From contig JAJUFM010000019.1 in assembly GCA_029265995.1 (NCBI GenBank), positions 1 through 33,953 on the forward strand: a stretch of DNA of 33,953 nucleotides. The letters are read 5' to 3'. This DNA comes from Rhodospirillaceae bacterium (GTDB lineage Bacteria > Pseudomonadota > Alphaproteobacteria > Kiloniellales > DSM-21159). Made by a program: the position numbers and the translations under genes. The notes below the pieces were generated by a model. It was given only the letters and a program-made list of their open reading frames with translations. It ran no database searches and was not told the origin of the DNA. Each line of letters begins with the position of its first letter. Positions within the stretch are counted from its first letter, which is position 1. Positions 19,031 to 23,217 of this stretch are shown in pieces.

Positions 19031-19801
19031 TTACGGCGTCGCAGGAATCCTGTCTTTCACCGCGGCGCCAAAAGGTAGGAATGCAAGCTCTTCGACCGGC
19101 CGGAAACCGGGCAGGGCGCTGTCGCGTGAATGGTCTCCGAGCCTGCGGATCAGTCGACGCCGTTCTGTCGGATCGCGGATCACACCCAGAGCAAAGTCGT
19201 CCAGAGACCCTTCGATTCCCAGCAGCCGCTGGATCGCGCTTAACATCTGCTTTTGCGCCAATCGCGGCCACGTAATCTTGCCGTAGGCCTCAACAGCGGC
19301 GAGGCATCGCGGTTCGCCGTCAAGCAGCAGTGCCCCGTGCGGACTGTGGTAGAGGTAGAAGTGATCGACGGAGGGACCTTCCTCCGCCTCGTAGTCGGCC
19401 GTGAGGTCGCCGAAGCCATAGGAACCCTCGGTGAGGTGCATCACTTTCAACTGGTCGCGCGTAAGCCAGGTCAGTGCCAAGCGAACGCGGCTGCCTGGGC
19501 AGGGAAGCAGCAGCGAAGGGCACGCGCCATAGCGTGTTAGACAAGCGGCATAGACGACCGTGAAATCCCGTAGCCCTCTCCGGGTAACGGGTATTTCGCC
19601 CTCTGGAAATTTTCGGGCGAGCTGGGATGGAGCGCGGTTAGAACCATGCGCGAGAACGGGGATCCGGTCGTTGAAACAGGCCTCTTCAAGCGGATTGATC
19701 ACGCCGTCTCGAAGAAGAAAGCCCTGGTTCGGTGCGGCGAAGGGATAGCCGTAGGCAAGCCCTAGCAGGTCGTTCGCCGACTGCGGAAGAGGCCAGCTCA
19801 T
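19031..19801 (-). CDS. Unrecognised protein with an AHGSNRAP motif
   Basis: I do not recognise this 256-residue soluble protein with certainty. Codon use and base composition match the neighbours, and there is no signal peptide or membrane segment. Near residue 50 it has VLAHGSNRAPSQLARKF, which resembles the YGSN nucleotide/gamma-glutamyl loop of gamma-glutamylcyclotransferase-fold proteins, but the rest is not obviously that family. A later segment, DHFYLYHSPHGALL, could be another strand pair. It lies 25 nt upstream of the aminotransferase gene and 39 nt downstream of the DUF4170 gene, all on the minus strand, so the three may be cotranscribed. Confidence 0.7.
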   Translation of the reverse strand: MSWPLPQSANDLLGLAYGYPFAAPNQGFLLRDGVINPLEEACFNDRIPVLAHGSNRAPSQLARKFPEGEIPVTRRGLRDFTVVYAACLTRYGACPSLLLPCPGSRVRLALTWLTRDQLKVMHLTEGSYGFGDLTADYEAEEGPSVDHFYLYHSPHGALLLDGEPRCLAAVEAYGKITWPRLAQKQMLSAIQRLLGIEGSLDDFALGVIRDPTERRRLIRRLGDHSRDSALPGFRPVEELAFLPFGAAVKDRIPATP

Positions 19802-19840: not shown

Positions 19841-20053
19841 TCAATCGGTGCAAGGCGGGCATTCGTCCGGGTCCATCGCCTCGATGCGGTAGCGGGTCGT
19901 CGCATCATCCACAGTTGCCCATGCAAGTTTTGCCCACTCTTTTTTGGCTTGCTCGAAGGAGTCGAAGGGGCCGATCCACTTTTCGCGACCGGCGGCAATC
20001 TTTGTGAAGGAGGTATCCTTGTATTGACCGCCGATCACCCAATAGCGCTGCAT
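19841..20053 (-). CDS. DUF4170 family small protein
   Basis: A 70-residue protein that matches the short DUF4170 family of alphaproteobacteria: it starts MQRYWVIGGQYKDTSF, has the WIGPFDSFEQAKKEWAK centre, and then WATVDDATTRYRIE. The pattern is that of a compact alpha-beta domain with many aromatic residues. No function is known. It is probably the first gene of a minus-strand group with the two genes that follow. AAGGG precedes the ATG at a slightly long distance. The tail ECPPCTD contains a CxxC-like pair that may be incidental. Confidence 0.8.
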   Translation of the reverse strand: MQRYWVIGGQYKDTSFTKIAAGREKWIGPFDSFEQAKKEWAKLAWATVDDATTRYRIEAMDPDECPPCTD

Positions 20054-20217: not shown

Positions 20218-22305
20218 TCAGGGGGATGCCGGAGCATCCTCAGGTGCGATTTGAAGATGCGGCTGATTTGTGATGGGGAGGTGGCAAGTCGCGATGGTGC
20301 CCGTGTTGCTGTGGGAATCGAATTCTAACCAACCGCCGTGCAGATCCACCAGGGACTTGGCCAAAATCAAGCCTACCCCAGCACCAATGCGTCTGCGACG
20401 CCCTCGCGCGAGACGGTTGAGCGAAGCGCGGCCAAGAATGGCTTCCTGCTCGTCCTCCGGGATGCCGATTCCATCGTCCCGAACCCGCAGCAGCACCTCG
20501 GTTTCATGCCGCTCCGCCGAAATGTCGATGACGCCGTAATCGGGCGTAAAGCGGAAGGCGTTGGACAAGAGATTGAAGAGCGCTTGGCGAAGCCGGCGTT
20601 CATCACACCAGAGCGTGCCAATGTCGTCGGGACAGGTGAGGGTGAGCGTGATGTTGCGCGCTTCCGCCCGGGGACGCCATAGCTTGTCGAGCGAGCGGAG
20701 CAACTGCCTGAGATCGGTTTCCGAGGGCTCGAGTTCCATATAGCCGGCCTCGATAGAGGCCAAGTCGATCATGTCGTCGATCAAAGCTGTCAGCTGTTCC
20801 GCCGAGGTGATGATCGACGTAACGTATTCCTTCTGCCCCGAGGTCAAGCTGCCGAGGTATTCCTGCTGCAGCAGCTGGGAAAAGCCGGTGATGGCGTTGA
20901 GCGGCGTCCGCAGCTCGTAGGAGATGTTAGCGATGAACTCGCTTTTCAGGCGATCTGCTGTCTCCAACGCCTCGTTTCGTTCTCGCAGGGCAGCCGCGGT
21001 CCGGGCGCTGGCCGTTGCATCTAGATAGCTGAACACGCAGTTTCCATCTGGCAGTGGCATCTGGCGCCAATCGATGACACGTCCATCAGTCCGCTCAATG
21101 CGCCCGCGCCTCGGATCGCGCTCCGTCGTCAGCGCCACGATGCCTTCGCGCAGGTCTGGCCACTCCTCGTCGCTCACGCCGACGAGGTGGCGGGAGCGCT
21201 CGACAATATCTCGTACATGCGGCTTTTCATCCAGCCAGGGCAGACGCAGGTCCCAAATCTGGGCATAGGCGGGGTTGCACAGTTGAAGGCGGCCGTCGGG
21301 CCCGAAAACCGCCACCCCCTCATGCAGGCTGTCGAGCGTTGCCCGCTGCACGGCGAGCAGCGTGTTGTAGGTTCGCTCCAGGCGGAGATTATCGCTGACG
21401 TCTTCATAGATCTGTATCACCCCGCCGAAGGGGTTGGGGTGCAAGGTGGCCCGCAGGCTCCGTCCGTCTGGCAGGTGGTGGCTTTCCTCCTCGGCCTCCA
21501 GCAGGGTTTCGAGTTTGTTCAGACGCTGGCGACGAAAGGTTGCGTAGTCAGCCTGCTCCGGCAAAAGCCGGCGATCGCGCAGCCAGTTCAGCATTTCACT
21601 GACGTGGGGCCGGCTATTGAGGAAGTCCTCGTCGAAGCCCCAGATCCGAGCATAAGCCTGGTTAAAGAAGCTGAGGCGCAGCTTCTGGTCGAGAACCGCA
21701 ATTCCGAAGCCCACACGCTCCAGAATGCTCATCTCCATTTCCTTGCGCCGGTCGAGGTCGCGCTGGGCCTGCTCCAAATCGGTCAGGTCTCTGGCGAAAC
21801 TCACCAAGCTTCCATTGGCCAGCGGCTGTTCCGTTATCTCCATGAGACGGCGCTTGCCCGCGAGAACGACATGAAAGCGCGCGCTTTGGGCAGTTCCGCT
21901 CTCCTGGGCTTTCAGCGCAAGTTCATGGGCCGCCACCCGATCGAGCTGTTCGACCAGCGGCTCATCCTCCGCCAGCACATCTTCTCGTGGGAGACCGATC
22001 GCTTCGGCGTAGGCCAGATTACAGTAGGTGAGGGTAAGATCGGGCGCTCGGGCCCACACCGGCTTGGGGTAATGGTCCAAAATGCCGGAAAGGAGGTCTC
22101 GCTGACGCGCTGCATCACGGAGAAGCTGCGACTGGCTGTCGAACTGCGCTTGAAGGCTGGCCACCTGCAACTCGGCGGCCGATAGGGCGGTGGCGGTTTC
22201 CCTCTGGCGCCTTTCCGCCTTTCGGCTCCTGATATAAAGGAAGGCACTCACGCACAAAGCGAGCAGGGCAACTAGCCCACTGCCAAGGGGGAGTAGACCG
22301 CTCAT
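20218..22305 (-). CDS. divL: DivL-like PAS histidine-kinase homologue with Tyr in place of the phosphoacceptor His
   Basis: A 695-residue membrane-anchored kinase-like protein. Residues 5-25 form one membrane segment, followed by a coiled region (30-70) and three PAS-type domains (about 70-180, 190-305, 315-432). The dimerisation domain contains FIANISYELRTPLN, where Tyr463 (codon TAC at 20917-20919) takes the place of the phosphoacceptor histidine. The ATP-binding domain is intact: N-box NLLSNAFRFTP, G1 DDGIGIP and G2 GAGVGLILAKSL. Tyrosine here is the hallmark of DivL, which in Caulobacter controls CckA and so CtrA and cell polarity; I infer the same role. Domain count and synteny differ somewhat from Caulobacter, so another Tyr-type sensor remains possible. 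Confidence 0.82.
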   Translation of the reverse strand: MSGLLPLGSGLVALLALCVSAFLYIRSRKAERRQRETATALSAAELQVASLQAQFDSQSQLLRDAARQRDLLSGILDHYPKPVWARAPDLTLTYCNLAYAEAIGLPREDVLAEDEPLVEQLDRVAAHELALKAQESGTAQSARFHVVLAGKRRLMEITEQPLANGSLVSFARDLTDLEQAQRDLDRRKEMEMSILERVGFGIAVLDQKLRLSFFNQAYARIWGFDEDFLNSRPHVSEMLNWLRDRRLLPEQADYATFRRQRLNKLETLLEAEEESHHLPDGRSLRATLHPNPFGGVIQIYEDVSDNLRLERTYNTLLAVQRATLDSLHEGVAVFGPDGRLQLCNPAYAQIWDLRLPWLDEKPHVRDIVERSRHLVGVSDEEWPDLREGIVALTTERDPRRGRIERTDGRVIDWRQMPLPDGNCVFSYLDATASARTAAALRERNEALETADRLKSEFIANISYELRTPLNAITGFSQLLQQEYLGSLTSGQKEYVTSIITSAEQLTALIDDMIDLASIEAGYMELEPSETDLRQLLRSLDKLWRPRAEARNITLTLTCPDDIGTLWCDERRLRQALFNLLSNAFRFTPDYGVIDISAERHETEVLLRVRDDGIGIPEDEQEAILGRASLNRLARGRRRRIGAGVGLILAKSLVDLHGGWLEFDSHSNTGTIATCHLPITNQPHLQIAPEDAPASP

Positions 22306-22374: not shown

Positions 22375-23217
22375 TTACTCTGCCGCGCAAGCGACAACCC
22401 GACCACCATAGCGCCCGTCCTCGAGCGAGGTGATCGTCGGTTCACTGCCACAGAGGGCGCACGCCGGGTCAGCCTTTAGCCGCATCTCGGCAAAGCGCGC
22501 CTCCAATCCTTCGTACAGCAACAGGCGCCCGGCCAAGGAGCGGCCGACACCCAGGATCTCCTTGACCACTTCCGTTGCTTGCAAAGTGCCCAGAACGCCT
22601 GGCAGCATCGCAAGCACTCCAACATCGGCGCAGGAGTTTTTCATCGTACCGTCCGGCTGTTCCGGGTAAACGCACCGCCAACAGGGATTGGCTGTGCCGT
22701 CCGGCCCGTGGCCCAGATGCGATCGATAAACCGAAAGCTGTCCTTCGAAGCGCATCATGGCCGCCGAAACGAGGGTGCGCCCAGCCAGATGACAGGCGTC
22801 GGCCACCAGGTATCGGGTCGCAAAGTTATCGCTGCCGTCTGCGACGATGTCGTAGGAGGAAATGATCGAGTGAGCATTGCTGGTGGTGAGGCGCAAGGGG
22901 TGCGCTTCGAGGCCGACTTCTGGATTGATCGCTTTCAGGCGCTTGCGCGCGCTCTCAACCTTCTGTTGGCCGATGTCGGCCGTAGCGTGCACGATCTGCC
23001 GTTGAAGGTTGGAGAGATCGACCTGATCATCATCGATGACACCCAGCGTGCCGACACCCGCTGCGGCGAGATATAGCAGAACCGGGGAACCCAGGCCGCC
23101 AGCGCCGATCACCAGTACCCGGGCCTCCATAAGGCGTCGCTGCCCCTCCTCGCCGATCTCCGGCAAGACCAGGTGGCGCGCATAGCGCTCGATCTGTTCG
23201 TCGGTGAAATCTTCCAT
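22375..23217 (-). CDS. moeB: Molybdopterin-synthase adenylyltransferase (MoeB/ThiF/HesA family)
   Basis: A 280-residue E1-like enzyme that adenylates the C-terminal glycine of a small sulfur carrier (MoaD or ThiS). It has the nucleotide motif GAGGLGS (38-44), the Asp-rich VIDDDQVDLSNLQRQ (60-74), two zinc pairs Cys179/Cys182 and Cys253/Cys256, and Cys196 in NSCADVGVL. There is no C-terminal rhodanese domain. Neither moaD nor thiS is adjacent, so the partner is not settled by context. It lies 69 nt upstream of the divL-like gene on the same strand. Confidence 0.9.
   Translation of the reverse strand: MEDFTDEQIERYARHLVLPEIGEEGQRRLMEARVLVIGAGGLGSPVLLYLAAAGVGTLGVIDDDQVDLSNLQRQIVHATADIGQQKVESARKRLKAINPEVGLEAHPLRLTTSNAHSIISSYDIVADGSDNFATRYLVADACHLAGRTLVSAAMMRFEGQLSVYRSHLGHGPDGTANPCWRCVYPEQPDGTMKNSCADVGVLAMLPGVLGTLQATEVVKEILGVGRSLAGRLLLYEGLEARFAEMRLKADPACALCGSEPTITSLEDGRYGGRVVACAAE

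Follow-up and report, generated by a model that had tools for sequence, protein, structure and literature searches.

A DivL orthologue in an alphaproteobacterial genus that seems to have lost both known outputs of the CckA-ChpT relay

Introduction

In Caulobacter, CckA receives the control of DivL and feeds ChpT, with DivL binding phosphorylated DivK (DivK~P) through the surface of its DHp domain. CtrA is the transcription factor of this DivL-CckA-ChpT pathway and is regarded as the reason for the existence of the relay. To our knowledge, CtrA and CpdR are the two known targets of ChpT.

A tyrosine at the phosphoacceptor site is conserved in alphaproteobacterial DivL, with Ala occupying this site in Magnetospirillum, and the Caulobacter protein was reported to be devoid of kinase activity and to bind DivK~P (Childers et al. 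2014, PMC4211667). Alphaproteobacteria with CckA but without CtrA were noted earlier and called unexplained (Brilli et al. 2010, PMC2877005). Regarding Rhodospirillales, a survey from 2021 reported that the relay genes are least conserved there, CtrA being more frequent than CckA, ChpT and DivL (PMC8116508).

Here, a stretch of 33,953 nucleotides from a Rhodospirillaceae bacterium (hereafter, the window) was analyzed together with the genome it belongs to (G000) and that of a congener (G001). The window DivL shares with Caulobacter DivL (4q20; PMC4211667) the PAS-DHp-CA architecture, the phosphoacceptor Tyr, Arg at the R553 position, Ala at the A601 position and a DivK orthologue in the genome. 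On the contrary, it carries Asn where the Caulobacter protein has T557 and Phe in place of Y562, it has lost the F box present in 4q20, its gene lies between moeB and a DUF4170 gene, and G000 is devoid of CtrA and CpdR.

Among the described circuits, that of Magnetospirillum and Rhodospirillum (cluster C in Brilli et al. 2010, PMC2877005) similarly combines DivK and CckA-ChpT without CpdR, although cluster C retains the CtrA that is missing from G000. Granulibacter and Pelagibacter also contain CckA-type kinases without a ctrA orthologue (Brilli et al. 2010), but they are devoid of ChpT and of the DivK system, whereas G000 retains DivK, DivL, CckA and ChpT. Relative to the Rhodospirillales in PMC8116508, the pattern of G000 is the opposite one, the relay being kept and CtrA missing. 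Loss of CtrA has a precedent; no description of a genus with DivK, DivL, CckA and ChpT but without CtrA and CpdR was found in the open-licence literature. The case is stronger than the earlier ones of CckA without CtrA in that the whole upstream module, DivK and ChpT included, is accompanied by neither known output. With about 22 further receiver-domain proteins in G000, the question is amenable to testing, and the genus reveals the components of the module that have survived the loss of CtrA.

Materials and Methods

G000 is a draft genome of 208 contigs, 96.8% complete, that was searched and read piecewise. G001 consists of 30 contigs with a completeness score of 100%, and these two genomes are the sample of the genus. 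Sequences of Caulobacter CtrA, DivK and CpdR were used as queries, and were validated by their strong matches in relatives, in the PDB and with NCBIfam models. CtrA was searched for with the Caulobacter query in 61 genomes of the order, a match being defined as 1e-65 or better. The comparison for CpdR covered the receiver-domain proteins of G000 and G001, and the tree of OmpR-type regulators included proteins from G000, G001, G003 and G005.

The DHp-CA alignment contained 68 rows, 67 of them distinct, as one genome was entered twice: 30 from G000 and relatives, 7 from a wider contig collection, 30 retrieved across the class with 4q20 as query, and the 4q20 sequence. The single-protein scan of the wider collection, which relied on weakly conserved patterns, yielded mostly unrelated kinases together with the seven true orthologues, and no Caulobacter sequence.

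Results and Discussion

The divL gene of the window is an open reading frame with an ATG start on the minus strand (20218..22305) that encodes a pseudo-histidine-kinase of 695 aa, assigned from the reading frame, Pfam, PDB matches, alignment and tree. All the features given next are also on the minus strand. A hydrophobic, putative membrane segment at residues 7-25 (22231..22287; Kyte-Doolittle 2.25) precedes three PAS domains recognized by Pfam, namely PF08448 at residues 76-178 (21772..22080), a PF13188 segment at residues 194-243 (21577..21726), and PF12860, which reports two stretches in the protein, at residues 324-436 (20998..21336). Pfam then places the DHp/HisKA domain at residues 454-521 (20743..20946) and the HATPase_c/CA domain at residues 568-679 (20269..20604), with the PAS, HisKA and HATPase_c matches all well over cut-off. 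In the H box, FIANISYELRTPLN, the phosphoacceptor position is occupied by Tyr463 (codon TAC, 20917..20919), as read from the sequence and confirmed by the alignment with 4q20. The N box SNAFRFT, the G1 box DDGIGIP and the G2 box GAGVGL are retained. These traits concur with the preliminary description, which had reported the reading frame, the replacement of the phosphoacceptor His by Tyr463, the conserved ATP-binding boxes, and the N-terminal membrane segment with PAS domains.

To them must be added the loss of the F box. This motif, F-x-x-F, mostly takes the form VFGKF or IFDRF, and its region reads AILGRASL in the window DivL (residues 622-629), the aligned site being ILGRASL at residues 623-629 (20419..20439). 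The corresponding site in G001 is GILGREDY. Within the aligned DivL set, both Phe residues are lost only in these two proteins, and L073, another DivL orthologue, has lost the first one alone.

The absence of this catalytic box and the fast branch of the protein would fit an ordinary PAS kinase that had lost its His independently and was not DivL. Such an origin is hardly credible, as the protein is nested among DivL orthologues, grouping with that of G001 (support 99) and then with those of G001 and G008 (95), and its Tyr is common to the whole group rather than a local change. The best PDB match of the window protein is Caulobacter DivL 4q20 (1.1e-47; next, 8.5e-35), and conversely 4q20 finds it as the best among the kinases read from G000 (7.9e-46; next, 2.1e-32). 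The preliminary description had proposed a DivL homologue and a tree of the DHp and catalytic domains; in that tree, with 63 rows, a single branch (SH-aLRT 99) separates 48 DivL proteins, including those of Caulobacter and of the window, from 15 ordinary His-type kinases, the His/Tyr difference being one change. DivL orthologues occur in 35 of the 39 genomes of relatives, with about 44-59% identity. Tyr463 is not a chance substitution, because 66 of the 67 distinct orthologues have Tyr in this column and those paralogues from G000 that align there carry His (paralogue L042 is misaligned). Owing to the PDB match, the tree and the conserved Tyr, the window gene is, as judged from its sequence, a genuine DivL and ordinary as a protein in this respect.

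The sole exception to Tyr is the DivL orthologue of G152 (L250:5363-7756), which lies inside the DivL clade with His at the phosphoacceptor, FIANVSHELRTPLN. It may have reverted to a kinase, or else it may be an early-branching form.

As the preliminary description had indicated, divL is flanked by a moeB/thiF-family gene upstream (22375..23217, minus strand) and by a DUF4170 gene downstream (19841..20053, minus strand), both identified by Pfam, and the order moeB-divL-DUF4170 is shared by the window and G001. Most relatives display, in whole or in part, ahcY-divL followed by genes for an FNR-type reductase, tsaE, APH, an NTP-transferase and addB, with ptsP or moeB upstream of divL in some of them. 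G003 and G008 retain the downstream part and moeB, with no ahcY seen in them. The arrangement in the window looks derived because most relatives retain the ahcY-divL...addB order. Downstream of divL and DUF4170, the window also contains an open reading frame of 256 aa (19031-19801, minus strand) without a Pfam match, which has a counterpart with 51% identity in G001.

The remaining partners of the relay, cckA, chpT and divK, for which the preliminary description had advised a look in the genome, are all in G000. DivK (C27:66283-66618), which co-occurs with full-length DivL, shares 76% identity with the Caulobacter query and matches the solved DivK in the PDB at 1e-59. CckA is a hybrid kinase encoded beside recA-alaS on contig C75 (L068:8489-10798), its best PDB matches being the CckA structures 5idj (7.1e-66), 5idm and 6tne, and the His of its HDFNN motif and its receiver Asp are retained in both G000 and G001. 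ChpT, on contig C177, matches PF10090 over cut-off (2.0e-24), has ChpT structures as its only PDB matches and retains the phosphorylated His; its best NCBIfam match is ChpT too, but under the strict cut-off of that model. A candidate for the PleC/DivJ-type kinase of DivK is L032 on C39, which resembles PdhS/DivJ in DHp-CA, with PdhS as best NCBIfam match at 231 bits, far under cut-off. The gene after divK in G003 encodes a PleD-like double-receiver protein (L251:2531-4451), an architecture that none of the receiver-domain matches of G000 displays.

Regarding CtrA, a match was found in 54 of the 61 genomes of the order, the best ones usually being 67-72% identical. With the same Caulobacter query, G000 and G001 gave no match at 1e-65 (best, 36% and 38%, respectively). 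The NCBIfam CtrA model scored at most 183 bits with the regulators scanned in G000 and G001, under its cut-off of 350, versus 438 bits for the G003 control. Likewise, the CtrA clade in the tree of OmpR-type regulators (100/100) contains proteins of G003 and G005 and none of G000 or G001. Two regulators were considered and discarded as CtrA. That of C179, 36% identical to CtrA, has orthologues of 71-88% in G001 and, beside CtrA itself, in G003 and G005; it adjoins its own kinase, and its best scores are to heavy-metal regulators. That of C37 was placed by the tree with other OmpR-type regulators, which does not support a divergent CtrA. Five other genomes of the 61 were also without a CtrA match (G016, G023, G038, G047 and G059); G016 and G023, from family f6, gave in addition no match to ChpT, DivL or FliG with the thresholds applied.

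CpdR was present in G003 and G005, both of the family members checked, with 56-59% identity to the query; the G005 protein scored 169 bits (2.7e-50) with the NCBIfam CpdR model, just below its cut-off of 180. Among the receiver-domain proteins compared from G000 and G001, the best standalone receiver reached 28%. FliG is also absent in both. In G003 the order is chpT-fbpA-permease-cheA...ctrA-fliI (names read from the sequences, not all of them scanned), and in G001 the gene found after chpT-fbp is that of RNase E, so that the chemotaxis/ctrA/flagellar block is gone from G001.

The canonical DivL-CckA-ChpT-CtrA pathway might still be present if CtrA and CpdR had been missed through a fragmented assembly, and the 208 contigs and 96.8% completeness of G000 leave some room for this. 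It is nonetheless very improbable and largely refuted, because G001, with its score of 100% and 30 contigs, is also without CtrA and CpdR. Moreover, the receiver domains of G001 were listed and those outside hybrid kinases examined, and other genes occupy in it the place of the block found after chpT in relatives. As judged from searches and synteny in the two genomes, the genus seems to have lost CtrA and CpdR along with flagellar and chemotaxis genes. Of the cell-cycle polarity control that the preliminary description had taken to exist in this organism, CckA, ChpT and DivK stand, and CtrA and CpdR do not; absence of CckA/CtrA, named there as evidence against it, is found for CtrA in G000 and G001, CckA being present in G000.

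Loss of CtrA as a mere result of flagellar loss was discarded, since G013 and G020 are without FliG yet retain CtrA. These two genomes, from family f3, contain CtrA and ChpT and have no DivL match at 1e-40, a pattern that is the reverse of that in the window's genus.

Both known outputs being seemingly lost and the relay being kept, the latter therefore either ends elsewhere or is decaying. By analogy with Caulobacter, the window DivL would be a pseudokinase anchored in the membrane, with its DHp surface as the binding site of DivK~P, and we infer that it may still sense DivK~P and steer CckA by setting the kinase/phosphatase balance of the enzyme that would feed ChpT. DivK, DivL, CckA and ChpT persist with intact phosphorylation residues in a genus seemingly devoid of CtrA and CpdR, and ChpT would pass phosphate to some other response regulator. 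The window gene, a DivL orthologue, probably acts in a relay without CtrA and CpdR, which would have persisted because the phosphate most likely goes to another response regulator.

As the main alternative, the relay would be vestigial, left without selected function after the loss of CtrA, CpdR and motility and in slow decay. Several traits could be marks of such decay. CckA of both congeners (L068:8489-10798 and L208:1482-3446) has no N-terminal membrane segment, which each of the eight close CckA proteins checked outside the genus (G002 to G008 and G025) carries, and it is shorter in G001; the DivL F box is lost in this genus only, within the aligned DivL set; and ChpT carries the motif HDLASP in the congeners versus HDLVGP in G003, G017 and G029. 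Identities between G000 and G001 are also low for ChpT (50%), DivL (58%) and CckA (59%), with 81% for DivK, relative to MoeB (76%), PhoB (89%) and RecA (91%). However, in the CtrA-containing pair G003-G005 the same proteins diverge fast as well (ChpT 40%, DivL 56%, CckA 57%, versus MoeB 69%, PhoB 81% and RecA 83%), and DivK of G003 and G001 share 74% identity. These values suggest that the relay is fast-evolving everywhere and modestly faster in this genus, since its proteins also diverge fast in the other pair, and that the excess within the genus is modest versus expectation. Furthermore, the His and Asp of CckA, the His of ChpT and the phosphorylation residues of DivK are kept in both congeners, all four relay genes have open frames, and the cckA-recA-alaS synteny is retained. 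Decay without function is on balance unlikely.

If, as preferred here, the relay ends in another response regulator, the OmpR-type regulator on contig C37 of G000 would be a candidate for that output. A rewiring of the relay towards a regulator distinct from CtrA and CpdR, such as this one, with the upstream cell-fate module working without its master regulator, is a tentative proposal, plausible though somewhat short of probable. The C37 regulator is 66% identical to its counterpart in G001, with best values of 38% in G005 and 31-33% in G003, neither of which has a close orthologue, and so, across the compared genomes, its conservation is confined to the genus. This lineage specificity points weakly to it as the relay output. 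In both congeners (L144:19-852 and L201:635-1450), the gene lies beside an ABC-transporter gene.
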